DNA from: Clostridia bacterium
Lineage (GTDB): Bacteria; Bacillota; Clostridia; Oscillospirales; Acutalibacteraceae
Direction of reading: 5' to 3'
Assembly (NCBI GenBank): GCA_017513195.1
Contig: JAFXGM010000013.1
Coordinates: 103,416-167,415, forward strand
Length of the DNA: 64,000 nt
Shown: piece by piece, positions 31,149 through 44,761 of the stretch
Numbering within the stretch: the first letter of the stretch is position 1
How the letters are laid out: each line of letters begins with the position of its first letter
The notes under the pieces: model-generated
Told to the model about the DNA's origin: nothing
The model's database searches: none
Seen by the model: the letters and a program-made list of their open reading frames with translations, nothing else
Made by a program: the position numbers and the translations under genes

Positions 31149-31805
31149 TTATCTTTTAATTACCTTTACCTTTGCGCCGTTACCAATTCCAGCCGCATTG
31201 GCATCATCTGTATCAATATGCATTTCAAGGCGGAAATCTTTATGCACACGTACCTGTACATCGTAAAATTTGGTGCGACGCTCGCCGTTTACCTCTACGT
31301 CAACATACTGCCCATCGACAAGACCAAAAGCTGCGCCCTCGTCAGTGCTCATATGTATATGACGGTTAGCGATTATGCAACCCTCTTTAAGTGTTACAAC
31401 ACCTTTGGGTCCTATAATTGTAACGGGTGCAGAACCCGCTATATCGCCCGATTCGCGCACGGGTGGTTTTACTTTAAGCGTAAAAGAATCGGTGCGAGAA
31501 ATCTCTACCTGAGAAGCCTTACGAACGGGGCCTAAAACTCGTACATTTTCAATGGGACGAAGTGATGGGCCAACTATAGTCAAGGTCTCTTTGCAAGCAA
31601 ATTGACCGGGTTGAGAAAGGTCTTTTATTGGGGTAAGTTCATAACCTTTGCCGAAAAGTGTTTCAAGGTCGGCTGTAGATAAGTGAATATGACGGTTTGA
31701 TACGCCGACAGGAACTGTATCATTATTACCGCTTGTGCTTTCGGTGCCAAGGCCTGCCATTACGCGCGACACTATTTCGGCAACTATTTTATCATCATAA
31801 GCCAT
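31149..31805 (-). CDS. pduL: Phosphate propanoyltransferase PduL of the microcompartment
   Basis: A 218-residue enzyme converting propionyl-CoA and phosphate to propionyl-phosphate and free CoA inside the shell. The two zinc-binding NRHIHLS and NRHIHMS motifs and the closing RLEMHIDTDDANAAG are diagnostic of PduL. Residues 1-20 form an amphipathic helix (IVAEIVSRVMAGL), the type of encapsulation peptide that docks enzymes to shells, followed by a short Gly/Ser/Thr/Asn linker. It is the last gene of the operon, 20 bases after the aldehyde dehydrogenase. Confidence 0.95.
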   Translation of the reverse strand: MAYDDKIVAEIVSRVMAGLGTESTSGNNDTVPVGVSNRHIHLSTADLETLFGKGYELTPIKDLSQPGQFACKETLTIVGPSLRPIENVRVLGPVRKASQVEISRTDSFTLKVKPPVRESGDIAGSAPVTIIGPKGVVTLKEGCIIANRHIHMSTDEGAAFGLVDGQYVDVEVNGERRTKFYDVQVRVHKDFRLEMHIDTDDANAAGIGNGAKVKVIKR

Positions 31806-31825
31806 TTTACAAGCCTCTTTTCAAA

Positions 31826-33274
31826 TTAAATAATTCTAAAGCTTTCTGCCATTACACAGCGACGTTGACGTGTAAAGCTGCGAGCCGAGGTAATGCCCTC
31901 GCCTGTAGGACCTGCAATAGTAAAGGTTGCGTGGCCCTCGCCGCCAAAGCCAATGCCTGCGTAAGAAGGCGCATTTTTGACAAAGATTGTGGTTTCAACC
32001 TCACGAGCAAAGCGAGAAAGGTTGTCTACGTTTTTAGAGTGCATATGTGCAGTATGGCGGTTGCCGTGCTCTGCCTTTACAGCCAAGTCAATAGCCTCGT
32101 CAATATCGTTTACGCGAACGATGGGAAGGATTGGCATCATAAGCTCTTCTTGCACAAATGGGTGATTAAAATCGGTTTCACAAATGATGCAACGAATATC
32201 GTCACTAACGGTAATACCAAGCTTTGAAAGAATAACCTTTGCGTCACGGCCAACGCAATCGCGATTAACTATTTTACGAACGTTGCCCTTTTTATCGGTT
32301 TTATCAACAAGAACTATGTCTGCAAGCTTAGCAGCCTGAGCTGAATCTATCATATAAGCGCCGTTTTTAAGCATAATAGAGATAAGCTCATCAGCAATAT
32401 TCCTAAAAGCAAATACCTCTTTTTCAGCAATACAAGGTAGGTTGTTGTCAAATGTGCAACCGTCAATTATATCTTTGCCTGCCTTTGCGATGTCGGCGGT
32501 ATCATCAACTATAACGGGTGGGTTACCTGCGCCCGCGCCGATTGCCTTTTTACCCGAAGAAAGCACAGCCTTTACAACACCGGGACCACCTGTGCAAACA
32601 AGAAGTCTGATAAGTGGATGTGACTGCATAATAGCGGCTGATTCAAGTGTTGGCTTTTTCATAGAGCAAACCAAAATTTCAGGGCCGCCCATTGCTTTAC
32701 TTGCGCGGTTTACAAGGTCAACTGCGTAGTTAGAGGTAGCAATAGCGTTTGGATGCGGGTTAAACACAACACCGTTACCTGCAGCTATCATACCGATTGA
32801 ATTGCAAATTACGGTTTCACTTGGATTAGTACTTGGAGTGATAGCACCAACAACACCAAACGGTGCCATTTCAACAAGTGTAAGACCGTTATCGCCTGTT
32901 TTTGCAGCAGATACAATATCCTCAGTGCCGGGGGTTTTGTCCGCTACAAGCATATGCTTTGCAGTTTTGTGGTCCACCCTGCCCATTCCTGTCTCTTTAA
33001 CGCCGATTTCTGCCATAATGTGTGCTTCAGCACGTGTAAGACGACGAATTTCAGTGATAAGCTGTTCACGTTTTTCTACCGACATCGCGCGCACTGCCTT
33101 ATAGGCTACCTGTGCTGCTGCAATAGCGTCGTTCATATCGTCAAATACACCTACAAATTTTTTGCCGGCATATTGTGTGCTGTCAAAGCTTGCTGTGGGG
33201 GCTGCGGCAGATACCTGATTAAGCACCTGACTAACTACCTCACGGATTTCGGCTTCAGTAAGATTTCTTGCCAT
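31826..33274 (-). CDS. pduP: CoA-acylating propionaldehyde dehydrogenase (PduP-like)
   Basis: A 482-residue aldehyde dehydrogenase that oxidises propionaldehyde to propionyl-CoA with NAD+. It shows VGAITPSTNPSETV, GAGAGNPPVIVD, and the nucleophilic cysteine in DNNLPCIAE. The N-terminal 20 residues (TEAEIREVVSQVLNQV) are a predicted encapsulation helix, followed by an Ala/Pro linker. ATG 33274 is preceded by AAGGAG; the GTG three codons upstream overlaps that site and is not the start. With PduL and the alcohol dehydrogenase it recycles CoA and NAD within the compartment. Confidence 0.94.
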   Translation of the reverse strand: MARNLTEAEIREVVSQVLNQVSAAAPTASFDSTQYAGKKFVGVFDDMNDAIAAAQVAYKAVRAMSVEKREQLITEIRRLTRAEAHIMAEIGVKETGMGRVDHKTAKHMLVADKTPGTEDIVSAAKTGDNGLTLVEMAPFGVVGAITPSTNPSETVICNSIGMIAAGNGVVFNPHPNAIATSNYAVDLVNRASKAMGGPEILVCSMKKPTLESAAIMQSHPLIRLLVCTGGPGVVKAVLSSGKKAIGAGAGNPPVIVDDTADIAKAGKDIIDGCTFDNNLPCIAEKEVFAFRNIADELISIMLKNGAYMIDSAQAAKLADIVLVDKTDKKGNVRKIVNRDCVGRDAKVILSKLGITVSDDIRCIICETDFNHPFVQEELMMPILPIVRVNDIDEAIDLAVKAEHGNRHTAHMHSKNVDNLSRFAREVETTIFVKNAPSYAGIGFGGEGHATFTIAGPTGEGITSARSFTRQRRCVMAESFRII

Positions 33275-33302
33275 ATATAACACTCCTTGTGATACTTTAA
33301 AA

Positions 33303-34061
33303 TCAATAAATCAGTTCAACGTTTTTTCTCTTTAAATATTCCTGCCAATTAGCACTAGGCTCAGTATCGGTGGCAATTATATCAACCTCGTTAACATTGC
33401 CAACCTTTATAAGTGAAATTTTATCAAATTTACTTGAATCTACGCACAAAATCTTAGTTTCTGCTGATTCAAAAATTGCCTGCTTCATTTCGGAATCCTT
33501 TTCGTTTGAATCGGTAATTCCGCGTGTAATATCAAGTCCTTTAGATGAACAAACCGCGTAGTCAACGTGGAAAGAACGTATTGTCTTTTCGGCCGATGGT
33601 CCAACAAGAGAAAGCGAACCTTTTTTTAGCTTACCGCCGGTCGAGAAAACGTTCCAATCGTCTTTGTCTGAAAGTTCTATAAGCGCTTCAACCGAGTTGG
33701 TAATAAGGGTAATATTTTTTAAATTTCTTATATAATTGAGAAGCAAAAGAGCTGTTGAGCTTGCATCCAACATAATGCAGTCACCGTCTTGGAACAGTGT
33801 GCTTATCTTTTCTGCTATTTTTTGTTTTGCTTCTACGTTTGCTTTTTTTCTAACACTATGAGGTAGGTCGGTACTAAAGTTTTGAACAAGTACTGCACCG
33901 CCGTAGCTCTTTTTAACAAGACCTTCTTTGTCTAGTTTGTCAAGATCTCGACGGATTGTTTCTTCGGTTACGTCAAATTCTTGACTAAGCGCCGAAACAA
34001 TAACCTTGCCGTCTAAATATAGCTTGGAAAGAATGGCATTGCGTCTTTCTATTGCAAGCAT
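33303..34061 (-). CDS. DeoR-family transcriptional regulator of the BMC operon
   Basis: A 252-residue regulator. Its N-terminal winged helix contains VIVSALSQEFDVTEETIRRDLDKL, the DeoR signature, and the C-terminal sugar-phosphate-sensing domain includes MLDASSTALLLLNYI and a CVDSSKFDK region. DeoR members in fucose and rhamnose loci usually repress until a phosphorylated sugar intermediate binds. It lies inside the BMC operon between pduT and pduP, so it may control its own operon. Candidate target words are the TGTGGTTTT repeats near both operon promoters (40611-40633 and 44871-44883). Confidence 0.9.
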   Translation of the reverse strand: MLAIERRNAILSKLYLDGKVIVSALSQEFDVTEETIRRDLDKLDKEGLVKKSYGGAVLVQNFSTDLPHSVRKKANVEAKQKIAEKISTLFQDGDCIMLDASSTALLLLNYIRNLKNITLITNSVEALIELSDKDDWNVFSTGGKLKKGSLSLVGPSAEKTIRSFHVDYAVCSSKGLDITRGITDSNEKDSEMKQAIFESAETKILCVDSSKFDKISLIKVGNVNEVDIIATDTEPSANWQEYLKRKNVELIY

Positions 34062-34105
34062 CTAAACAGTTCTCCCTTTCTATAAATTTCGAATTCTTGG
34101 TGCTG

Positions 34106-34657
34106 TTAAATAATACTGTTCCACATTTTTTCGTCCGGATGAGGAATTACAGCTGAATCAAGGAACATACCCTGTTCTCCGGCACCCTGCTTTGCGCGTT
34201 CAATCGCTGCATCCACTGCCGCAATCTCACCTGTAAGCAGTAGGTAAGATTTACCGCACATACCGCGTGAAAGGCGAAGCTCTACAAGCTCTACAAGCGA
34301 TGTCTTTGCAGCTATATCAGCCGCAACAATGGCAGCCGATGACGAGAAGGTTTCAAGCACGCCCAGCGCATTAGGGCTTTCAATTTCGGTTGTACCGTAA
34401 AGCGCTGTAAAGATACTGTCATGCGGATTGCCAAGTACAAACTTGTCAATAAGCATATCCGGTATTCTGGTTGCCGTCGCATCGACAGCCGCGCGCACTG
34501 CACTGAGCTCACCAGAGATTAGCACCATATATTTACCCGGACACACTGTAGTAGCCTCTATGATTTCAACCTCGGCGGTCTTAACCATTATATCTACTGC
34601 ACGCATACCCGATGATACTGTTTTGTATTCTACCATTGCGAGTGCTTTTTTCATCAT
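34106..34657 (-). CDS. pduT: BMC-T shell protein, PduT-like (tandem BMC domains)
   Basis: A 183-residue shell protein with two BMC domains, one starting KKALAMVEYKTVSSG and the other ALGVLETFSSSAAIV. It would form pseudohexameric trimers. The first domain carries CPGKY at the position where PduT has its pore cysteine ligating a [4Fe-4S] cluster, so an electron conduit through the shell is plausible. It lies next to the PduS-like flavoprotein gene, its known partner in other systems. Two ATG codons are adjacent; AGGTG is closer to the ideal distance for the second. Confidence 0.92.
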   Translation of the reverse strand: MMKKALAMVEYKTVSSGMRAVDIMVKTAEVEIIEATTVCPGKYMVLISGELSAVRAAVDATATRIPDMLIDKFVLGNPHDSIFTALYGTTEIESPNALGVLETFSSSAAIVAADIAAKTSLVELVELRLSRGMCGKSYLLLTGEIAAVDAAIERAKQGAGEQGMFLDSAVIPHPDEKMWNSII

Positions 34658-34663
34658 TTACAC

Positions 34664-35986
34664 CTATTGTTTTTCTATTATGATGGCGGTTTTACCAACC
34701 GCGGTAACAACGCCGTTTACCGGTGAATGTAGGGCAACACTTAGTCCATCGCCGGCATTGGCTATTAATTGCTTTTCGTGTACCTGGTCACCTTTTTTCA
34801 CAATTGGAACGCTTGGGCTTCCTACGTGCTGGCTAAGAAGTACCGTTACTTTTTTAAAGTCGGGCACCGCCTCGATTATGGGGGCTGACTTATTATACTT
34901 TTTAAGACCTATACGACTTGTAAGTCTGCTCATAGGCACCTGACGAAGCGGACGGTCAGGATTTACTACAGGCTCAGGCTGTGGTTGTGGCTTAATGCCC
35001 GCCTTGCGAAGCTCGAGCTTGCACGCTGCCAGTAGCATTCGAGGGGATAGGTTTTGTACGCAAGAATATTGCTCGCAAAGTCCGCAACCCGAACAGTACA
35101 TAGCGTTTATATATGGCGCCGCATCATTTGTAATGCTGTTGGATGCAACACGCATAAATTCGGACGGATTAATTGGATGACCTAATAGATTTCGCGAGCA
35201 AAGACTTGTGCAATAACTGCACTGACAGCAAGCTGCCATAGCGCGCTTCATATCTATAAAGGTTTTAGACTGTCTTCTTCTGATAAGTGAATGGCTGCTT
35301 GGCAGTACCAATACTGCATTTGTAGTTTTGGTAACAATGTTGGCTTTGCTTCCAAGCGAACCCATCATAGGACCGCCAATTATAAAGGCAGGGTCTTCGG
35401 TTGTGATGTTACCTGCAAGCTTTATAATCTCTCCTACCGTCACACCGATCGGCACACGCACGGTTACGGGATTTTCTACCTCGCCTGCTATTGTTACATA
35501 CTTACGTGTTACGGGACGTCCGTTCATAGCGCGGTAAAGATTATATATCGTTTCAACGTTTAGTACCATAACGCCAACCGATAGCGGTATATCACCGGGG
35601 GGAACAATTCTACCCGTTACCTCATAGGTAAGAATAACCTCGTCGCCTGCGGGATATACGTCGTCAAGAAGACATATTTCTATATTTTCAAAAAACTCTA
35701 CAAAAGGCTTTATAGCGTTAGCCGTAGCAGTGTACGATTTTTTAAGCGCTACACATACCCTTTTAGCGTTTACTGTTTTCGAGATTATCTGGAGGGCTTC
35801 AAAAATTTCCTGAGGATGAGTTTCAAGCACCTGACGGTGCAATTTAAGAAGCGGCTCACACTCAGCGCAATTAAGAATAACAGTATCGGCTTTTTCGCTT
35901 AACTTTGCATAGGTTGGAAAACCTGCACCGCCTGCGCCGACAATTCCGTTTTCTTTAAGAATGCCCTGAAGTTCTGAAAGTTTCAT
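34664..35986 (-). CDS. pduS: PduS/RnfC-like flavin and Fe-S electron-transfer protein
   Basis: A 440-residue protein with an RnfC-type N-terminal NADH/FMN domain (GIVGAGGAGFPTYAKL, LNCAECEPLL), a SLBB region, two [4Fe-4S] motifs (CCQCSYCTSLC and CSGCGLCEQYSC) and a C-terminal barrel-sandwich segment. In cobalamin-dependent Pdu systems PduS reduces B12. This operon uses a glycyl-radical dehydratase that needs no B12, so a different acceptor is implied, such as the activase cluster or the PduT cluster. This reassignment is inference. Confidence 0.92.
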   Translation of the reverse strand: MKLSELQGILKENGIVGAGGAGFPTYAKLSEKADTVILNCAECEPLLKLHRQVLETHPQEIFEALQIISKTVNAKRVCVALKKSYTATANAIKPFVEFFENIEICLLDDVYPAGDEVILTYEVTGRIVPPGDIPLSVGVMVLNVETIYNLYRAMNGRPVTRKYVTIAGEVENPVTVRVPIGVTVGEIIKLAGNITTEDPAFIIGGPMMGSLGSKANIVTKTTNAVLVLPSSHSLIRRRQSKTFIDMKRAMAACCQCSYCTSLCSRNLLGHPINPSEFMRVASNSITNDAAPYINAMYCSGCGLCEQYSCVQNLSPRMLLAACKLELRKAGIKPQPQPEPVVNPDRPLRQVPMSRLTSRIGLKKYNKSAPIIEAVPDFKKVTVLLSQHVGSPSVPIVKKGDQVHEKQLIANAGDGLSVALHSPVNGVVTAVGKTAIIIEKQ

Positions 35987-35989
35987 TTA

Positions 35990-36262
35990 TTATAACTCCG
36001 GTAAACCTATTCCGTTATCTACAATACCAACAATAGCAGCATCAACCGGGGCAGTTTCAATATTACAGCCTATTCTTGCGGCAGAACCTGTTGCTACAAG
36101 AACTATTTCGCCAATACCTGCGCCTACATTATCTATAGCTACAAATTTTTTGTTGGGATCGCCAAGCTTTTCAATTGGCTCAATAACCATAAATTTAGAA
36201 CCAACAAGTTTTTCATTTTTTCTGGTTGAAACGATGGTTCCTACTACTTTTCCAACTAACAT
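35990..36262 (-). CDS. pduN: BMC-P pentameric vertex protein (EutN/PduN/CcmL family)
   Basis: A 90-residue protein matching the pentameric vertex family: MLVGKVVGTIVSTRK at the N-terminus, FVAIDNVGAGIGEIVLVATGSAAR in the core, and DAAIVGIVD near the end. Pentamers cap the twelve vertices of the shell. Only one such gene is present in the operon. It starts 53 bases downstream of a strong GC-rich hairpin. Confidence 0.95.
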   Translation of the reverse strand: MLVGKVVGTIVSTRKNEKLVGSKFMVIEPIEKLGDPNKKFVAIDNVGAGIGEIVLVATGSAARIGCNIETAPVDAAIVGIVDNGIGLPEL

Positions 36263-36314
36263 TAATTTTCAATCCCTTCTGATTGATTTTATGTTTTTAC
36301 TCAAAAGCGGATGC

Positions 36315-36340
36315 TCGGGGAGGAGGGGTCCCCTCCCCGA
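36315..36340 (-). repeat. GC-rich intercistronic hairpin between shell genes
   Basis: TCGGGGAGG pairs perfectly with CCTCCCCGA around an eight-base loop that can itself zip partly. This is far more GC-rich than its surroundings. On the minus strand it follows the shell gene at 36351 by ten bases but is not followed directly by a T run, so it is more likely an mRNA-stability or partial-termination element that separates abundant shell proteins from downstream genes. Confidence 0.65.
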
Positions 36341-36350
36341 AAGAAAAATA

Positions 36351-36629
36351 TTACTTCAATGAGGGAAGAATTTTTTCTACATCTGCGTGTGGTCTTGGGA
36401 TTACGTGTGTTGCGATAACTTCGCCCAAAGAACCAGCCGATGAAGAACCTGCTTCTACAGCAGCTTTTACAGCGCCAACGTCGCCACGTACCATAACAGA
36501 TACAAGACCAGAACCTATTTTTTCTGTACCGATAAGCTCTACGTTTGCAGCTTTCACCATTGCATCAGCAGCTTCAATTGCAGCTACAAGACCACGGGTT
36601 TCTACCATGCCTAATGCTTCAAGTGCCAT
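36351..36629 (-). CDS. BMC-H hexameric shell protein, PduA/EutM type (short copy of a duplicate pair)
   Basis: A 92-residue shell protein with a single BMC domain: [24 protein letters not shown], then [23 protein letters not shown] and the [14 protein letters not shown] end. It should form hexamers tiling the facets, with the pore loop at the EKIGSGL region. It differs at only one residue (Ala to Asn in RPHADVEK) from the BMC domain of the preceding gene at 36685, so the two arose by recent duplication or conversion. AGGAGG precedes the ATG. Confidence 0.95.
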
Positions 36630-36684
36630 TTTCGTTTCCTCCTGATTAAGATTTTAATTTATTAAATAAAAATTTAATACGAAA

Positions 36685-37095
36685 TTATTTAAGTGATGGA
36701 AGAATTTTCTCCACATCGTTGTGAGGTCTTGGAATTACGTGTGTTGCAATAACCTCACCTAAAGAACCGGCTGAAGAAGAACCTGCTTCTACAGCAGCTT
36801 TTACAGCGCCTACGTCGCCACGTACCATAACAGATACAAGACCTGAGCCTATTTTTTCTGTACCGATAAGCTCTACGTTTGCAGCTTTCACCATTGCGTC
36901 GGCAGCTTCGATTGCAGCTACAAGACCGCGGGTTTCTACCATGCCTAATGCTTCAAGTGCCATTTTCTTTACCTCCTTTACCATAGGTTCTATTTCCACC
37001 TTTGCTTCTACAGCCTTTTTAGGTGCAGCAGCCTTGGTAGTTGTTGTTTTTTTAGCGGCAGTCGTTTTACTGCCTGTAGTTTTAGAAGTAGCCAT
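36685..37095 (-). CDS. BMC-H shell protein with 44-residue Lys/Thr/Ala-rich N-terminal extension and a second internal start
   Basis: Read from ATG 37095 this is a 136-residue protein. Residues 1-44 are rich in Lys, Thr and Ala ([18 protein letters not shown]) and end acidic ([12 protein letters not shown]). Residues 45-136 are a complete PduA-type BMC domain. AGAAGGAA lies upstream of the first ATG. A second ATG at 36963 begins exactly at the BMC domain and has a near-perfect TAAAGGAGGT seven bases before it, so both a long and a short product are expected. The extension is histone-H1-like in composition; it could face the lumen or bind nucleic acid, but its role is unknown. It shares one base with the upstream gene (TAATG). 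Confidence 0.88.
36971..36980 (-). promoter_or_regulatory. Internal Shine-Dalgarno site for a short BMC-H form
   Basis: On the minus strand this reads TAAAGGAGGT, seven bases before ATG 36963, which starts the BMC domain. It lies within the codons for the VKEVKK end of the extension. The equivalent site of the neighbouring 92-residue copy is AGGAGG. Confidence 0.75.
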
Positions 37096-37394
37096 TATTT
37101 AGTTCCTTCTTTCTTTTCCATTCGTGATGCGCTAAGCTTAAGCAGTCGCTCGACCTCTGCGTGAGGGCTTGCAATCACTGCGTGAGAAACAGGTCGCTTT
37201 ATGGCATTGGCCATAGCGTTATCTACTGCGGCGGTTACTGCCGAAACCTGACCCTCTACCACAACCGTTACAAGTCGTCCACCAAGCTTGCGTTCCCAGG
37301 TTACAAACTCTACGTCTGCCGATTTGCACATTATGTCAAGACAATCAATAGCAGCCGTTACGCCCGAAACCTCTATAAGTCCGATAGACTTCAT
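37095..37394 (-). CDS. BMC-domain shell protein, diverged BMC-H
   Basis: A 99-residue BMC-domain protein distinct from the PduA-like copies. The pore region reads [16 protein letters not shown] in place of [14 protein letters not shown], and the C-terminus adds a short basic helix ([14 protein letters not shown]). [21 protein letters not shown] and [13 protein letters not shown] mark the domain ends. It probably mixes into facets as a minor hexamer with a different pore. Coupled by overlap to the extended BMC-H gene. Confidence 0.9.
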
Positions 37395-37410
37395 TGCTGT
37401 TACCTCTTAA

Positions 37411-37683
37411 TTAGAATTTAGGAAGTATCTTTTCTACATCAGCATGTGGTCTTGGGATTACGTGTACTGCTACAAGCTCGCCAAGGCGTGAAGCGTTTGC
37501 TGAACCTGCTTCAACAGCAGCTTTTACAGCGCCAACATCGCCGCGTACCATTACAGATACAAGACCTGAACCGATTTTTTCGGTACCGATGAGTGTTACT
37601 TCTGCAGCCTTAACCATTGCATCAGCAGCTTCAATTGCAGCTGTAAGGCCACGGGTTTCTACCATACCAAGTGCTTCTTTCAT
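37411..37683 (-). CDS. BMC-H shell protein, PduA/EutM type
   Basis: A 90-residue single-BMC-domain protein very similar to the two PduA-like copies downstream but with its own substitutions ([36 protein letters not shown]). It retains the same EKIGSGL pore loop, so it should form the same kind of hexamer. A GGAGG ribosome site precedes the ATG. Confidence 0.95.
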
Positions 37684-37701
37684 AATATATATCCTCCAAA
37701 G

Positions 37702-38016
37702 TTAGTTTTTATCAAAAGCGTTAAGCTTTAGCATTGGTTCTGTGGATGCTTCTGTTCTTGTAATAATATGACTAGCAACCACGCCTGTAACGTTTTCGGC
37801 AGCCTGTTTTGCAGCAGCCATAGCGGCTTCTACTGCATCAACCGTACCACGAAATTTTATTGCCACAATTAGAGGAACCTCTAATGCATCAGCGTTACCG
37901 GGTTTGTTTTTGTCAAAATTTTCTACAGTAACGTCTGCCGCCTTGCAACCTGCGTCGCAGGCCACGAAAGCGCTTACCAGACCAAACACCTCTAAAATAC
38001 CTGTAGCATTACCCAT
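37702..38016 (-). CDS. BMC-domain shell protein with altered pore region
   Basis: A 104-residue BMC protein beginning ATGILEVFGLVSAFVACDAGCKAA. The strand after the pore carries an insertion (FDKNKPGNADALEVPL) compared with PduA-type copies, and the pore loop lacks the usual GSG. The C-terminal IITRTEASTEPMLKL replaces VIPRPH. It is the first shell gene after the enzymes, 11 bases before the alcohol dehydrogenase end. The changed pore suggests selectivity for another metabolite. Confidence 0.88.
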   Translation of the reverse strand: MGNATGILEVFGLVSAFVACDAGCKAADVTVENFDKNKPGNADALEVPLIVAIKFRGTVDAVEAAMAAAKQAAENVTGVVASHIITRTEASTEPMLKLNAFDKN

Positions 38017-38027
38017 AAGTGTTCTCC

Positions 38028-39224
38028 TTATTTGTTAACTACAGCGATTTTCAGACCTTCCATCTTTAGATTGGTCTTAAATGCCTCGTCAATCTGTTCG
38101 AGAGGATATTTGTGGGTGATAAGCTTTTCAATAGGAAGACCTATTCCCTTAGCACGCTTTAAGAAATCAAAGGTGGTTGCATAATCGCGGAGGGTATATA
38201 CCCAAGAACCAACGGTTGTAATTTCTTTTGAGCAGATATCAAAGTGTGGGTTAATAGTAGCATCGCCACCATTAATAAAGAAGCCCAATTCGCAAAGTCC
38301 ACCGCCGTTGCGTATGAACTTATAGATGTTGCTGTGTGCTACAGGTGAGCCTGTGCACTGGAATGCAAAGTCAGCAAGGTATCCGCCAAATGCATCCTTA
38401 ACACCACCGGCCAGTGCCTCAATACCACTGTGGTTTTTAAAGTTCACAGCAGCTGTAGCACCCATTTCCTTTGCAAAAGAAAGACGTTTTTCTTCGCCGT
38501 CAACAGCTACTATATTTTCAATACCCATTGTACGAAGAACTGCGATACAAATAAGACCGATAGGTCCGCAGCCCTGTACTACAACGCGGCTGTTAAATCT
38601 TAAAATACCGGTTGTTTTTGCGCGCTCTACTGCGTGAATAAGCACGGCGCAGGGTTCGATAAGAATTCTTGAATCAAGATCAAGATCACTTACATTAAAT
38701 ATGGTTGAGCCTCCGCGAACCAAAATGTAATCGCTAAACCAACCGTTTAGGTGAACGTCGTCATCGGGAAGAAGTCCGTAAACATCGGCTCCACCTACGT
38801 TTTGTTTGTTAAGGTCATACATTGTGATATCAGGATTATCCTTAAATATCATGCAGGTAACCACCTTGTCACCAACCTTTAATGGTTTGCCGGCCGAGTC
38901 TACCTTAACATTTTTACCCATCTTAACAATCTCGCCTGTACCCTCGTGGCCGAGTGCTACAGGAATAAGACCAAATGGGTCGCGTTTATATTCGTGAGCA
39001 TCTGTACCGCAAACGCCGCAGCCTTCAACCTTAACCAAGACGTCATCGTCACCAACTAGTGGCATCGGATATTCTTTGATTTCGATTTTTTCAAGACCTG
39101 TAAGCATTGCAACCTTTGCTGTTGCAGGAATTGCGCCGCTTGCTACAACAGCTGCAGGCTTGCCGTTCATGCTGTCAAGTACCTGACGTACAATCTGCTC
39201 TATGTTGGAAGAATTTATATCCAT
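38028..39224 (-). CDS. MDR-family zinc alcohol dehydrogenase with N-terminal encapsulation tag
   Basis: A 398-residue medium-chain dehydrogenase. Catalytic zinc residues lie in EGCGVCGTDAHEY and LGHEGTGEIVKMG, and the NAD-binding fold has GCGPIGL with an aspartate (AVDGEEKR) favouring NAD(H). The structural-zinc four-cysteine loop is not evident. The first 20 residues (SSNIEQIVRQVLDSMNG) form a tag like those of the other cargo enzymes, followed by an Ala-rich linker. It should reduce propionaldehyde to 1-propanol to regenerate NAD+, the job of the iron-type PduQ in other compartments. Confidence 0.9.
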   Translation of the reverse strand: MDINSSNIEQIVRQVLDSMNGKPAAVVASGAIPATAKVAMLTGLEKIEIKEYPMPLVGDDDVLVKVEGCGVCGTDAHEYKRDPFGLIPVALGHEGTGEIVKMGKNVKVDSAGKPLKVGDKVVTCMIFKDNPDITMYDLNKQNVGGADVYGLLPDDDVHLNGWFSDYILVRGGSTIFNVSDLDLDSRILIEPCAVLIHAVERAKTTGILRFNSRVVVQGCGPIGLICIAVLRTMGIENIVAVDGEEKRLSFAKEMGATAAVNFKNHSGIEALAGGVKDAFGGYLADFAFQCTGSPVAHSNIYKFIRNGGGLCELGFFINGGDATINPHFDICSKEITTVGSWVYTLRDYATTFDFLKRAKGIGLPIEKLITHKYPLEQIDEAFKTNLKMEGLKIAVVNK

Positions 39225-39700
39225 TATAGATACTGTCCTTTCTCAAAAATTTCTTTTCCATAAGCGGCAAGCGCCGTGTCTTGCGCTTCCGTACCGCCGC
39301 TAACACCAATACCGCCTACTATTTGGCCTTCACGGTTTTTAAGTGGTTCACCACCGCCAAAAATCACAATTTTACCACCGTTGGTAAACTGTATTCCGTA
39401 AAGTGAGCCGCCCGGTTGGGCCAAGGGTTTTAGTGTAGCCGTCGACATTTTAAGTGATACAACCGTAAATGCCTTTTGCACCGCTATATCATAGCTTGCA
39501 ATATATGCGTCGTCCATACTCTCCACCAGAACCGGACAAGCGGCTCTGTTAGATATTGCAACGACCGCCTTAACACCCATTTTTTCAGCCTTTTCGCGCA
39601 CCTTTTGTGCTACGCTTTGCGCTAAATCAAGTGTTATATCCTTGGGGCTTATTTTACTTACCACCGTCTCGACAATGGATTGTATGGCCTGTTCGTTCAT
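39224..39700 (-). CDS. GlcG/HbpS-like protein (PduO C-terminal-domain family) with N-terminal tag
   Basis: A 158-residue protein of the GlcG/HbpS family, recognised by VESMDDAYIASYDIAVQKAFTVV and the glycine-rich FGGGEPL...GGIGVSGGT end. Family members bind haem or cobinamide-like ligands. Residues 1-18 (EQAIQSIVETVVSKIS) again resemble an encapsulation helix. The ATP:cobalamin adenosyltransferase part of PduO is absent, as expected for a B12-independent pathway. Function in the compartment is unknown. Overlaps the neighbours by one base on each side. Confidence 0.85.
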   Translation of the reverse strand: MNEQAIQSIVETVVSKISPKDITLDLAQSVAQKVREKAEKMGVKAVVAISNRAACPVLVESMDDAYIASYDIAVQKAFTVVSLKMSTATLKPLAQPGGSLYGIQFTNGGKIVIFGGGEPLKNREGQIVGGIGVSGGTEAQDTALAAYGKEIFEKGQYL

Positions 39701-40500
39701 CAGTTTTTACCAAGCTGAGCGAGTACGCGCTTTGTAATTTCTGCTACCATATCAGACTCGCCCTTGCTACCGCATGTGCAGTTGCCGCCACAGCCATGAC
39801 AGCTAGGCTGACCAGCCTTTGCATTTGGGCAAAGGTCTGCAGGATGTTTACCCTTAAGACCAAACTGACGACGGATTTCATAAAGACGCTGTACCTGTGA
39901 TTCAGAAAGCTCTTTCGCACCGCCAAGCTGCTTAGAGATATAAAGTAGTTTTGCATAGAACTCTACAGATTCCATCTTGTGATATGCAGCAAGAAGTGAA
40001 TCAGAGAATGTAAGTGCACCGTGATTTTCAAGAAGCACTGCATCAAATGACTGCAAATACTTTGAAACTGCATCAGGGATTTCTTCGGTAGAAGGTGTGC
40101 CGTATTCAGCAATCGGTACACAACCGAGTGCGATAACTGCCTCAGGCATAATAGGCTGTGTTAGCGGAATGCCTGCAATAGCAAAGCCTGTTGCATACAT
40201 TGGGTGAGCGTGAACTACCGAATTAACGTCAGGACGCTCTTTATACACACGCATGTGCATCTTGATTTCTGAAGATGGCTTAAAGCCCTTGTTTGCTTGG
40301 ATAACTTTACCGTCGCGGTCAACCTTACAAATGAATTCAGGGGTCATAAAGCCCTTACTAACACCTGTTGGTGTGCAAAGGAATTCGTTATCGTTAAGCT
40401 TTACTGAAATGTTACCGTCGTTTGCAGCAACCATTCCCTTGTCATAAATGCGCTTACCGATGTCGCATATTTGTTTTTTGATTTCATACTCGTTTACCAT
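39700..40500 (-). CDS. fucA: Class II aldolase (fuculose/rhamnulose-1-phosphate aldolase type) with C-terminal Cys-rich linker and tag
   Basis: A 266-residue zinc aldolase splitting a 6-deoxy-ketose 1-phosphate to lactaldehyde and DHAP. It shows AANDGNISVKL, TPTGVSKG, the catalytic glutamate in PSSEIKMH, and zinc histidines in VVHAHP and LLENHGAL. Beyond the enzyme core, residues about 224-243 hold five cysteines (C224, 234, 237, 241, 243), then SDMVAEITKRVLAQL, a predicted encapsulation helix at the C-terminus. This end fits the aldolases of fucose/rhamnose glycyl-radical compartments. Fuculose versus rhamnulose phosphate cannot be decided by reading. Own promoter upstream at 40545-40573. 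Confidence 0.92.
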   Translation of the reverse strand: MVNEYEIKKQICDIGKRIYDKGMVAANDGNISVKLNDNEFLCTPTGVSKGFMTPEFICKVDRDGKVIQANKGFKPSSEIKMHMRVYKERPDVNSVVHAHPMYATGFAIAGIPLTQPIMPEAVIALGCVPIAEYGTPSTEEIPDAVSKYLQSFDAVLLENHGALTFSDSLLAAYHKMESVEFYAKLLYISKQLGGAKELSESQVQRLYEIRRQFGLKGKHPADLCPNAKAGQPSCHGCGGNCTCGSKGESDMVAEITKRVLAQLGKN

Positions 40501-40544
40501 GATTTTTTCTCCTTATTATTAAAATTTGCTTTTAAGTCATTATG

Positions 40545-40573
40545 ATAATACCACCAAATTGCGGTAAAGTCAA
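40545..40573 (-). promoter_or_regulatory. Internal sigma-A-type promoter P2 of the BMC operon
   Basis: Minus-strand -35 TTGACT (40573-40568) and -10 TATTAT (40550-40545) with 17 bases between. Transcription would start near 40538, about 38 bases before the aldolase ATG, whose leader contains AAGGAG. It lies in the only sizeable gap of the operon, between eutP and fucA. Confidence 0.8.
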
Positions 40574-40605
40574 CATAAAAAAGATAATTTTTTTGGTTTT
40601 TTGTG

Positions 40606-41043
40606 TTATTTATGTGGTTTTATGTGGTTTTTAAGGTGTTCTAACACTTTGTTTATGCCCGTTCCCGTTTTAGAATCGACGTGAAACACCGTTTCGCACC
40701 CCGAAAGTCTTAACCATTCTTCCGCAGTTGTGGGGTCTGCCTTGTCGCACTTTGTTACAATACCTATAACCTCCCTGTTTACCATACAAGTAATGTTTGG
40801 CGGAAAGAGCGAGTACTGTTCGTCAGCCGCTATCAGCAGTGCTACAACGTCAGCCTCGTAAGCATATAGGCAAAGCGCTGCGCCAAGGTCGTGATTTTCG
40901 GCATATTCACCGGGGGTATCTATCAAAAAATCACCGTAATCAATATACTGTGTTTTGTGATAGTGTGTTTTTTCACCCTTGAGCGCTTGAGTAAGGGTTG
41001 TTTTACCCACCCCACTGCGCCCTATAAGAATTAGTTTTTTCAT
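40606..41043 (-). CDS. eutP: EutP/PduV-family small GTPase-like protein
   Basis: A 145-residue Ras-like P-loop protein: GRSGVGKTTLTQ (Walker A), DTPGEY (switch II) and TKCDKAD (base recognition). EutP/PduV proteins are associated with microcompartments; PduV has been linked to their positioning and EutP to acetate kinase activity, so the role here is open. The 3' end of the gene encodes NHIKPHK and contains the two TATGTGGTTTT words that lie upstream of promoter P2. Confidence 0.9.
   Translation of the reverse strand: MKKLILIGRSGVGKTTLTQALKGEKTHYHKTQYIDYGDFLIDTPGEYAENHDLGAALCLYAYEADVVALLIAADEQYSLFPPNITCMVNREVIGIVTKCDKADPTTAEEWLRLSGCETVFHVDSKTGTGINKVLEHLKNHIKPHK
40611..40633. promoter_or_regulatory. 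Tandem TATGTGGTTTT words upstream of P2 (candidate operator)
   Basis: TATGTGGTTTTA begins at 40611 and TATGTGGTTTTTA at 40621, a ten-base periodic repeat, about one helical turn. The 13-base version recurs exactly at 44871-44883 upstream of P1 in the same orientation. It overlaps the end of eutP, where it also has to encode protein. Confidence 0.45.
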
Positions 41044-41411
41044 TAGGTTTTAGTCACTTCGCAAACCGTAAAGCCAAGCTTGTTTTGAACGTAGTCGGTT
41101 ATGGCAAGCAGTGAAGCCTCAACCTCTGATACAGTGCCTGTAAGGATTACCGTGCCGCTGAATCTATCTACAAATCCAAGTGTTGCACCGGATGATTTGA
41201 TTGCTATATCGCCCGCTATAATTGCCGTTTCACTGGGCGACACAGTCAAAATTCCAATTGCACCCTTATGGTCTTCGGCAGGATTGAGTCCTAATTTTTT
41301 ATAAAGTATTTCATCGGGGTTAGCAATAATGTGCGCGAGTGTAATTTGTTTACCTGGGACAAGCTCTTGAATAATGCGAGCCTTGTCGCCGAAGCTGTTA
41401 TCAAACTGCAT
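41043..41411 (-). CDS. pduU: PduU/EutS-like circularly permuted BMC shell protein
   Basis: A 122-residue BMC-H protein with permuted topology: an N-terminal IIQELVPGKQITLAHIIANP segment that forms the small beta-barrel cap, then AIGILTVSPSETAIIAGDIAIKSSGATLGFVDRFSGTVILTG. PduU and EutS hexamers have their pore closed by this cap. It lies between the activase and the EutP-like gene with one-base and three-base junctions. Confidence 0.92.
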   Translation of the reverse strand: MQFDNSFGDKARIIQELVPGKQITLAHIIANPDEILYKKLGLNPAEDHKGAIGILTVSPSETAIIAGDIAIKSSGATLGFVDRFSGTVILTGTVSEVEASLLAITDYVQNKLGFTVCEVTKT

Positions 41412-41414
41412 ATT

Positions 41415-42200
41415 CTAACCTCCTATTTGTACTTTCAAACCGAACTGCTCGGCCGTTTGTTTTAAAACTTCCATAAGGTCGTTTGTCGGGGATTTTAAAT
41501 CTCCCATACCGTACTCGCGACCAAGTCCCGTGTATTTGTCACGACCCATATTGTGATACGGCAGCAAATGTATTTCATCTACGTTTGGTAAATTAGAAGC
41601 AAAGGCCGCTATCTCGGCAATTTCGGCTACCGTATCATTAAAGGTCGGTATTACCGGAACTCTTATAATAAGCTTTTTTGCCTTGCTTGCTATCAGTTTT
41701 GCGTTTTCAAGAATTCTTTCGTTAGGTTGCTTTGTGAATTCCTTGTGTTTATCGCCATTTATGTGCTTAATATCCATAAGCACGGTATCTAAATATGGTA
41801 AAAATCTTTCAATTACCTCTGCGCTTGCAAATCCCGTGGTTTCGATAGCGGTATTTACGCCGTTATCTTTACACGCTTTAAGTAATGCCACCGCAAAGTC
41901 GGGTTGAAGTAGGCTCTCGCCACCCGAAAGGGTTATTCCACCGCCCGAACGATTGTAATATGGTCGGTCTTGTAAGACCTCGCTTAAAACCTCTTTAACC
42001 GTTACGTCGCGCCCCATAATCTTGGGCTTTCCATTTTGCAACATAGTTTCAATCTCATAAGACTGCGACTCGGGATTGCAACACCAACGACACCGTAGCG
42101 CACACCCTTTTAGAAAAACTATTGTGCGAATACCCGGCCCGTCGTGTGTAGAGAAACGCTGTATGTCGAAGATTCTTCCCATTACAGCGAGGTTATCCAT
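41415..42200 (-). CDS. Glycyl-radical enzyme activase (radical SAM), short form
   Basis: A 261-residue radical SAM enzyme that installs the glycyl radical on the dehydratase. The cluster motif is CALRCRWCCNPES with STHDGPGIRTIVFLKG before it; GGGITLSGGESLLQ and ETTGFA follow. Many dehydratase activases have an insert with two extra [4Fe-4S] clusters after this motif, but none is seen here, so it resembles the compact pyruvate formate-lyase activase in length. It starts two bases after the dehydratase. Confidence 0.94.
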   Translation of the reverse strand: MDNLAVMGRIFDIQRFSTHDGPGIRTIVFLKGCALRCRWCCNPESQSYEIETMLQNGKPKIMGRDVTVKEVLSEVLQDRPYYNRSGGGITLSGGESLLQPDFAVALLKACKDNGVNTAIETTGFASAEVIERFLPYLDTVLMDIKHINGDKHKEFTKQPNERILENAKLIASKAKKLIIRVPVIPTFNDTVAEIAEIAAFASNLPNVDEIHLLPYHNMGRDKYTGLGREYGMGDLKSPTNDLMEVLKQTAEQFGLKVQIGG

Positions 42201-42201
42201 T

Positions 42202-44730
42202 TCAGAAACCTCCCTGCTCGGTACGAGCTATAATGTCATCTTGTAGCGAACGTGATAACGTTGTAAAGAGTGCGCTGTAACCCGCAACGCGAACCACGAG
42301 TGACTTATATTTTTCGGGGTTTTTCTGTGCATCGCGAAGCGTTTCACGGCTTACAACGTTAAACTGCATGTGCATACCCTTTTGATCAAAGAAGCCTCGT
42401 ACCAAAGCCACAAAGCTTTCAAGTCCGCTTTGTCCTGCAAGTGCGCTCGGATGGAACTTCATATTAAATAGCGTTCCGTTTGACGCTATAAAGTGGTCGA
42501 GCTTTGCCACCGAGTTTGCCGACGCGGTAGGACCTTTTGTATCTCTGCCTGCTGCAGGGCCAACACCGTCAGCTATTGGTGTGAAGGCAAGTCTTCCGTC
42601 TGGGGTAGCACCCGTTTGTGCACCAAGAGGCACGTTAGCTGATACAGGATATAAGCCTGCTTGATACATACCGCCGCGTGGGTTTTTGTATTGTTCAAGC
42701 GGTTTTGTATAGGTGTAAGCCACGTCACGTGCAAATGCATCTACATCGGTAAGGTCATTGCCGTATTTCGGTAGTTCTTGTATAGTATCAAGCAACTCGC
42801 CCCAACGAGCTTTATCGGCATCGGATGCGGGGTTTTTAGATACTGCCAAGTAAATAGATTTTATATCTTCCGCGGTAAGCGTTTTACCGTCAGCCACTAA
42901 TTTTTCGGCAACCGTTTTGGTAAGCTTTTCAGCAGTTGCTGTATCCATATCCTTACCAAAGTTATTATCAAGCGCTGCTTTAAGCTCACAAAGCTTTATA
43001 AGCTTTTTATCGTATACAAGAGTTTTTACAGCCAAGAGTGCATCGGTCATATTTGCTATACCAAAGCCTTGAGGGCCGGTAAAGTTATAAACCGCACCAC
43101 CCTCTTGCAAGCTCTTGCCTCTGCCGATACAATCCTCTATCATTGAGGATTGGAAAGGAAGCGGGCAGCGACGAGCATGTGCTAAATCTATAGCGTTATC
43201 TGCGTTTACAAGTAATTTTATAAAATAGTTCATCTGCGCTTTGTAAGCGTCATAGAACTTATCAAACGTGGTAAATTCGTGAAGCTCGCCTGTTCGCAAA
43301 CCTACCTGCACGCCGCGGTCAACACCGTTTGAAAAAACAAGCTCAAGCGGGCGACACATATTAAAGAACGCTGCGTCGTGCCAACCGTCTGTTTTTGCAG
43401 GAGCCTGAGGTTCAACACAACCGATTATGTTGTAGTTACGAGCGTCCTCGAGTGTCACGCCACGGCTCATAAGTGACGGAATAATAACCTCGTCATTGTA
43501 ATAAGCCGGAAGGCCTACACCCGTTCTGGTTACCTCTGCCGCGCGAAGCAAAAATTCATGCGGGCTACCGTTCCAAACACGAACCGAAAACGAAGGCATT
43601 GGAAGCATTACGTGAAGCGTGGCGTTAATGCACATAAACGAAACATCGTTTGTAGCGTCATTGCCATATTTGTCCTGACCGCCTGCGATGAGGTTTTGGA
43701 ACAAGCTATAGCCTGCAAAGCCCTCTGCCGAAGCGGCGTCGCGAACTTTGTTAAGGTCGTTAAGCTTAACCCAAATGCAATCAACAAGCTCTTGTGCAAA
43801 CTCGCGTGTTATTTTGCCTGTATTTAAATCCTTTTCAAAATAAGGATTCATATATTGGTCAAATCTACCGGGAGAAATTGAATGTCCGCTTGATTCAACC
43901 TGCAAAAGCATCTGCACAAACCAGAAGGACTGGCAAGCCTCATAAAAGCTTTCGGCGCCATATCTCGGTACGCGAGTACAGTTTTCTGCGATTTTCAAAA
44001 GCTCTTCACGGCGTTTTGTATCAAACTCGGCCGTCGCCATTTCTTTTGCAAGTGTAGCATAGCGGTCAGCATAGTTTATAACTGCTTCACAGCTAATTAT
44101 TACCGCTTGTAAAAACGTGCTGCGAGATGCGTAATCAGCATCTGCCACATCAAGAGCGTTTAAAGCATCGTTCGCTTCGGCGATAATTCCCTTGTAACCC
44201 TTTTCTAACACCTTGCCGTAATCTACTGTAAAATGACCGATGCCATTATAGAAATAGTTACCTACAGTAAATATATTGTGCTCTATAGCGCAAAGCGCTT
44301 CAGGCGACATATAAGCAGTCGCAAGTTCGCTTGTGGTCTTACCCTTCCAGTAAGGGTAAACCTCACGAAGCTTTGCTTTGGTTTCTTCCGATATATAAAA
44401 CGGGTCGGCGCTACGTGTAGCAACGGTATCAAATTCGGCCTCCAACCACTCGTAAGAATATTCAGGGAATACCTGACAACCGCGCGGAGCCTTTGAGTTG
44501 CTACCTACAATCAATTCTTCAGGACGAATTGTTATTGGCAAATTCTCAAGTATGTGCGCAAAGGCCTTTGCTCTGCGCAATACTATTGGCTGCCCCTCGG
44601 TTGATTTATAACTTTCGGTTATCAGCACTGCACGGTCAGCCTCTATCTCGGGCATCTTTGCATAAAGATGATCAATAAGGCGCCCTATACGCGGTGATTT
44701 TTCTATATTTTTTGTGTATGTGTATGGCAT
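42202..44730 (-). CDS. B12-independent glycyl-radical propanediol dehydratase
   Basis: An 842-residue glycyl-radical enzyme that dehydrates 1,2-propanediol to propionaldehyde. Active-site residues match the B12-independent glycerol/propanediol dehydratases: His166 in GIGHFTVDY, His283-Ser284 in SGHSISPGRFD, Cys438 and Glu440 in GCVEPQ, Asp452 in DGWHDAAFFN, and the radical glycine Gly817 in RVAGYSA. The choline lyase CutC differs in the stretch after GCVEP. I choose ATG 44730, with GAGG nine bases upstream; a GTG five codons earlier overlaps that site. First gene of the BMC operon. No obvious encapsulation tag on the enzyme itself. Confidence 0.95.
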   Translation of the reverse strand: MPYTYTKNIEKSPRIGRLIDHLYAKMPEIEADRAVLITESYKSTEGQPIVLRRAKAFAHILENLPITIRPEELIVGSNSKAPRGCQVFPEYSYEWLEAEFDTVATRSADPFYISEETKAKLREVYPYWKGKTTSELATAYMSPEALCAIEHNIFTVGNYFYNGIGHFTVDYGKVLEKGYKGIIAEANDALNALDVADADYASRSTFLQAVIISCEAVINYADRYATLAKEMATAEFDTKRREELLKIAENCTRVPRYGAESFYEACQSFWFVQMLLQVESSGHSISPGRFDQYMNPYFEKDLNTGKITREFAQELVDCIWVKLNDLNKVRDAASAEGFAGYSLFQNLIAGGQDKYGNDATNDVSFMCINATLHVMLPMPSFSVRVWNGSPHEFLLRAAEVTRTGVGLPAYYNDEVIIPSLMSRGVTLEDARNYNIIGCVEPQAPAKTDGWHDAAFFNMCRPLELVFSNGVDRGVQVGLRTGELHEFTTFDKFYDAYKAQMNYFIKLLVNADNAIDLAHARRCPLPFQSSMIEDCIGRGKSLQEGGAVYNFTGPQGFGIANMTDALLAVKTLVYDKKLIKLCELKAALDNNFGKDMDTATAEKLTKTVAEKLVADGKTLTAEDIKSIYLAVSKNPASDADKARWGELLDTIQELPKYGNDLTDVDAFARDVAYTYTKPLEQYKNPRGGMYQAGLYPVSANVPLGAQTGATPDGRLAFTPIADGVGPAAGRDTKGPTASANSVAKLDHFIASNGTLFNMKFHPSALAGQSGLESFVALVRGFFDQKGMHMQFNVVSRETLRDAQKNPEKYKSLVVRVAGYSALFTTLSRSLQDDIIARTEQGGF

Positions 44731-44761
44731 AAGACAATACCTCACTTTACTGATTGTGTTT

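Follow-up and report, generated by a model that had tools for sequence, protein, structure and literature searches.

A hexameric shell gene with two in-frame starts in a GRM5-type locus of a Clostridia bacterium: probable source of armed and plain shell proteins

Introduction

Which products does a hexameric shell gene yield when a second start codon with its own ribosome-binding site lies in frame at the beginning of its domain, and what would the N-terminal arm encoded between the two starts contribute to the shell? The question is raised by a gene in a stretch of 64,000 nt from a Clostridia bacterium (GenBank GCA_017513195.1, contig JAFXGM010000013.1), called the window below. The linking of shell and enzyme core and the spacing of shell tiles are understood mainly from the pdu system and from carboxysomes, in which CcmM and other proteins use internal initiation to provide long and short assembly proteins. 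CcmM is a scaffold, whereas the gene considered here encodes a hexameric shell tile. A first-pass annotation of the letters had proposed that it yields a plain BMC-H and a minority form with a cationic arm. Comparison with homologues strongly supports two forms from one gene, and we regard it as very likely that this shell gene gives two products through two in-frame translation starts.

Materials and Methods

Relatives have been collected by scans of the window's genus (matches in 22 of 70 genomes at E 1e-20), family (44 of 300 at E 1e-30) and class (105 of 391 at E 1e-30), with the window's genome counted each time, and from named genomes, which contributed loci as the best 80 of at least 442 relatives. 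Loci L001–L145 contained 83 candidate arm frames, of which 67 non-redundant ones, the window's gene (L001) included, passed fixed rules; 16 were dropped by rule, nine of them for want of an outer start and the others for an arm below 25 aa, aromatic plus Cys content above 5%, or an N run. An inner start was scored where the beginning of the domain has an internal ATG and an in-frame GGAG precedes it by 4–12 nt. A later class-wide sample under the same rules was drawn from the 104 other matched genomes and took loci from the best-scoring 29, a selection that favours armed genes. From these 29 loci 24 genes passed, L227 was dropped (24 aa) and four showed no arm; the arms of L215 and L220 are the same as those of L069 and L077, which leaves 22 of the 24 as new.

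The GRM5 (fucose/rhamnose) type was defined by the gene set of PMC6325248, with PduS and PduT homologues present and GrpU absent as a further criterion, and the locus-type cut-offs (LR 600/400 bits) were chosen by us after the scores had been seen. A quick tree (57 armed, 145 plain, 26 changes) contains duplicate genomes, and no inference has been drawn from it.

Results

The gene and its locus

The first-pass description has been reproduced exactly as regards both ATGs, the SD spacing, the 44-residue arm and the PduA-like domain (Table 1). The PF00936 match covers residues 49–124 of the 136-aa product with 102.4 bits against a curated cut-off of 24.5 and is the only such domain above that cut-off, as expected of a BMC-H. 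Among solved structures, the fold search places PduA chains first; by sequence, only a designed tandem BMC-H fusion ranks above them. AlphaFold2 assigns pLDDT below 50 to residues 1–32, followed by a confident BMC fold (mean pLDDT 72.9), so that a disordered arm on a PduA fold is predicted. The A of the outer ATG is the final base of the TAA of the preceding BMC-H gene.

Table 1. Features of the two-start shell gene and its surroundings, in window coordinates; duplex energies refer to pairing with the anti-SD.
Feature	Coordinates	Strand	Description
BMC-H shell gene, long form	36685..37095	-	136 aa; 44-aa low-complexity arm and PduA-like BMC domain
Predicted short form, plain BMC-H	36685..36963	-	92 aa; internal ATG and SD, kept in 64/67 arm-bearing genes
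N-terminal arm	36964..37095	-	44 residues, K/T/A-rich, predicted disordered
Outer ATG	37093..37095	-	overlaps TAA of upstream BMC-H gene (TAATG)
Outer ribosome-binding site AGAAGGAA	37103..37110	-	7 nt before outer ATG; duplex -9.4 kcal/mol
Internal ATG	36961..36963	-	in frame, at domain start
Internal ribosome-binding site TAAAGGAGGT	36971..36980	-	7 nt before internal ATG; codons V-K-E-V of arm; duplex -13.8 kcal/mol
Upstream BMC-H paralogue	37095..37394	-	1-nt overlap with two-start gene
Downstream plain BMC-H copy	36351..36629	-	96% identical to two-start gene over match
Third PduA-like BMC-H	37411..37683	-	85% identical
GRM5-type locus	31149..44745	-	fucose/rhamnose, glycyl-radical type; PduL, AldDH, DeoR, PduT-like BMC-T, PduS, BMC-P, BMC-Hs, lactaldehyde reductase, GlcG-like, fuculose-P aldolase, EutP, EutS, activase, glycyl radical enzyme

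The locus holds the GRM5 core set of GRE (PF01228, PF02901), class II aldolase (PF00596) and a zinc-dependent dehydrogenase as lactaldehyde reductase (PF00107, PF08240), together with the Pfam domains of a PduS-like protein and a BMC protein of two domains; the names PduL, AldDH, DeoR, BMC-P, GlcG, EutP, EutS and activase have been read from translations. PduB is about 270 aa long. All eight PF00936 matches of the window's genome at E 0.01 lie in this locus and the longest frame has 183 aa; that search has therefore revealed no PduB-sized protein in the genome, and among the matches listed for 20 GRM5 relatives no BMC frame exceeds 197 aa. As a side observation, the shell genes at 36351–36629 and 36685–36963 begin with almost identical DNA, which we read as recent duplication or gene conversion of tandem genes.

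The arm as coding sequence

The outer start of the arm-bearing genes (ATG in 61, GTG in 2, TTG in 4) is accompanied by an SD, and in all 67 it lies between -8 and +105 nt relative to the stop codon of a BMC-H gene upstream. The arm drifts in sequence and in length (26–114 aa) but retains its reading frame, its composition and a start of its own. Lys (21%), Ala (17%), Thr (13%) and Glu (11%) prevail, hydrophobic residues are few, and there are hardly any aromatics, Cys or Leu, the scarcity of aromatics and Cys being due in part to the selection rule. The net charge is positive in 62 arms, zero in one and negative in four; the cationic character claimed at first pass thus describes the great majority and fails as a strict requirement.

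The arm frame contains no stop in 3104 codons, where the two remaining forward frames have 148 and 236; since openness was itself a selection rule and two of the reverse frames also hold few stops (27, 25 and 199), these counts are weak evidence by themselves. The pooled pN/pS of the arm is 0.43 against 0.04 for the domain (15 close pairs chosen by hand), and among these pairs the length of the arm changes in frame. Three genes, L046:1205 (-), L053:2249 (+) and L103:6115 (+), keep the arm and have no inner ATG with SD, so that the arm must be translated in them; we read them as natural long-only forms, and genes of this kind are the clearest sign that the arm is translated. The gene of L025, cut by a contig end, apparently also lacks an inner ATG with SD. 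Coding constraint on the arm is evident at the sequence level.

This evidence bears directly on the view that the short form alone is produced at a useful level and that the frame ahead of it is an annexed leader, open by chance. The rapid drift of the arm sequence would agree with such a leader, as would the inner SD, which exceeds the outer one in strength in 43 of 65 genes. The pN/pS value, the in-frame length changes, a composition and an own start that stay constant over many genera, the three genes devoid of an inner ATG with SD, and the presence of the arm in 31 of 33 GRM5-like loci of the window's genus and family all speak against it, and we consider this view improbable. The same comparison of SD strengths suggests, for the armed form, the minor share assigned to it at first pass, with the inner site not being the stronger one in the other 22 of the 65 genes. 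For the window's gene and the ten relatives nearest to it (L009–L018) the inner SD is clearly the stronger; this does not hold for others of the same genus, among them L019–L021, L023 and L024.

Conservation of the inner start

The internal ATG is accompanied by an in-frame GGAG in 64 of the 67 arm-bearing genes, with a gap of 9 nt in 60 of these 64. With the proteins kept fixed, synonymous recoding of the last six codons at the codon frequencies of the arms themselves predicts GGAG in place in 6.6 of 67 genes, far from the 64 observed. At fixed positions of the 67-gene set, Lys at codon -5 is AAG in 52 cases and AAA in one, and Glu at codon -4 is GAG in 61 and GAA in one, whereas the rest of the arms show the opposite bias (AAA 391 to AAG 199; GAA 219 to GAG 72). 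Fisher tests on the SD codons have been discarded as circular, the positions having been picked by GGAG, in favour of these fixed-position counts and the synonymous recoding; P values of the inner-SD tests ignore relatedness and are not literal. In the class-wide sample, which covers nine other family codes, inner ATG and GGAG occur together in 24 of 24 armed genes, with 1.2 expected. The residues around the inner SD vary (16 tripeptides, e.g., KEV, KEE, KED, REV, MEE, PEV) and GGAG is constant; in one sub-group (L044, L049–L052, L054, L100) the start lies two codons further on, at xxMEALG, and the SD has shifted along with the ATG. Selection on the inner SD is evident from the nucleotide comparison, and the check proposed at first pass, a comparison with homologues, has found both the arm and the internal ATG/SD pair retained in close relatives.

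Internal SD-like motifs need not initiate translation, and on that ground one might hold that only the long form is made, with the inner GGAG serving as a pause site or surviving as a relic of an older start; the joint retention of GGAG and ATG at 9 nt in most genes, their joint displacement in the sub-group, and synonymous sites held against the prevailing codon bias make this very improbable. Proteolysis of disordered, Lys-rich arms, which are easily cleaved, as a further source of the short form beside a minor contribution of the inner start would leave the conserved SD unexplained and is hardly to be expected.

Distribution

Among 67 genus and family stretches and the window, the rules find the arm in 29 of 33 GRM5-like stretches; of the four without it, two are genes cut by contig ends, and reading by eye raises the count to 31 of 33. 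By this co-occurrence, the arm is tied to the GRM5 locus type in the window's genus and family. The related GRE type has the arm in six of six loci, with L209 lacking the inner start, and the other GRE loci have it in none of two. The 27 stretches without GRE or LR over the cut-off include one real armed case (L176); L184, armed by rule, proves by eye to be an R/G-rich chance frame.

The named GRM5-like loci carry the arm in 29 of 50 cases within the best 80 of at least 442 relatives, a proportion that is not a frequency because the 50 were chosen by similarity; the 21 arm-less ones include one at a contig end and one with an N run. Both genomes of genus g59 (G244, G319) are without the arm. 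Given these two genomes and the 21 named loci, the arm is therefore, as judged from its pattern of occurrence, common yet dispensable, and the two-start layout recurs across many gut bacteria. The g59 loci L193 and L205 are LR-positive and have neither an aldolase in the stretch nor an arm, two absences that may be linked. Separately, L068:8667, L078:7770 and L077:10325 show an extra BMC domain about 120 residues upstream of the PduA-like domain and may be two-domain fusion shell proteins belonging to a related type of locus.

Discussion

How two products would arise

Regarding the two translation starts, the following course may be envisaged. Ribosomes ending the upstream BMC-H gene would restart at the overlapping outer ATG and yield a BMC-H whose arm is disordered and usually basic, and other ribosomes would load straight at the strong SD within the last codons of the arm and give a plain BMC-H. 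Because the domain is common to both, long and short forms would co-assemble into hexamers with few arms, whose number would depend on the relative use of the two starts. We infer that both proteins are made, that they mix in the hexamers and that the armed form is in the minority. An SD ahead of the domain ATG is normal for any plain BMC-H, and the fact that it is conserved demonstrates that the inner start is used but does not demonstrate that both are. The short form, moreover, looks redundant because near-identical plain copies (96% and 85%) are already present in the genome.

Relation to described shell proteins

PduB is a two-domain BMC-T, unlike the product of the window's gene with its one PF00936 domain in 136 aa. 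The genes of PduB and PduB' overlap in the pdu system of Salmonella, where the start codon of PduB' lies inside pduB and a 37-aa N-terminal extension is present in PduB and absent from PduB' (PMC9132943); this extension joins shell and core (PMC9132943, PMC12108088), and its first 22 residues are predicted to form an amphipathic, signal-sequence-like helix. The window's gene resembles this arrangement in having an in-frame internal start with its own SD, which would give a short form without the extension. Unlike the PduB helix, the arm in the window is of low complexity, and those of relatives are mostly basic and variable in length.

Another related case is found in the GRM5 fucose/rhamnose locus of Clostridium phytofermentans, where the homologue match of Cphy_1182 is limited to residues 73–161 (Petit et al., PMC3557285, Table 1 note), which therefore implies about 72 extra N-terminal residues. 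The L. phytofermentans locus of our set (L118) has, in likeness to Cphy_1182 as known here from that published residue range, a 71-aa arm with an inner ATG/SD. The word 'extension' is absent from PMC3557285, and its accessible parts offer no comment on an arm or a second start of Cphy_1182. PduK is a BMC-H with a C-terminal extension, EutS/PduU have an N-terminal one, and a BMC catalogue records extensions as long as 200 residues in BMC-H proteins, most frequently at the C-terminus (PMC8217296); in the accessible descriptions all of these are treated as protein parts, not as one of two translation products. Our literature search, based on partly accessible sources, has found no report of a two-start BMC-H; a bioinformatic GRM survey could mention the arm. 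Within these sources, the N-terminal extension of Cphy_1182 is implicit in print and the two-start reading of a BMC-H is apparently new.

Possible role of the arm

At first pass, cargo organisation, binding of nucleic acid and linkage of neighbouring layers had been named as conceivable functions of the arms. We tentatively read the arm, at somewhat short of even chances, as a shell assembly part that would connect the shell with the enzyme core or with its neighbours in the manner of PduB/PduB'. In this genome without a PduB-sized shell protein, linking would be accomplished by a charged low-complexity arm and not by an amphipathic helix. Encapsulation peptides of five enzymes of the same operon reach hydrophobic moments of 0.43–0.59; in a scan of 82 arms (the 67 and 15 of the 24 later ones), the arm of the window has no such amphipathic stretch and only five arms attain 0.35, which counts against a core-linking role. 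In PduA the N-terminus lies on the concave face, and in recombinant shells this face is turned to the cytosol, a further point against a core tether, with contrary evidence for native systems (PMC6109187). If the PduA orientation holds, the arm would exit from the concave face.

With a concave N-terminus and contrary evidence on native orientation, the arms may therefore act outside the shell instead, projecting from the concave, cytosol-facing side, where they would bind the nucleoid, RNA or other polyanions, or prevent sticking, stacking or over-growth of shells. Such an outside action, which we hold possible and rather doubtful, is in line with the recombinant PduA shells and with arms that are mostly cationic (62 of 67), low in hydrophobics and disordered; the opposite orientation reported for native systems and the four arms of negative net charge weigh against it, and polyanion binding is a proposal.

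Returning to linkage as the preferred role, a broader statement, rather unlikely as it stands, would be that two-start hexamer genes form a separate class which sets the number of flexible charged arms per hexamer and takes over from PduB the task of assembly or linkage in compartments of the GRM5 type and of some related glycyl-radical types, in many Clostridia families. A gut compartment type in which no PduB-sized shell protein was found appears to use one gene, two starts and a tunable arm dosage. With a single annotated start, one of the two products of such genes would be overlooked; for engineering, the arrangement would offer a natural route to placing a few disordered arms on hexamers.

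Two minor observations concern encapsulation-like sequences. The arm of L237 (G447), one of the five with a high hydrophobic moment, begins with MAQIPEVDIKEITKQVEQDIAQ, which resembles an encapsulation peptide and would be in keeping with tethering to the core in that lineage. In the window, at 39700–40500, the C-terminal region of the aldolase carries a Cys-rich linker (CHGCGGNCTCG) followed by an encapsulation-like helix (DMVAEITKRVLAQLGK).
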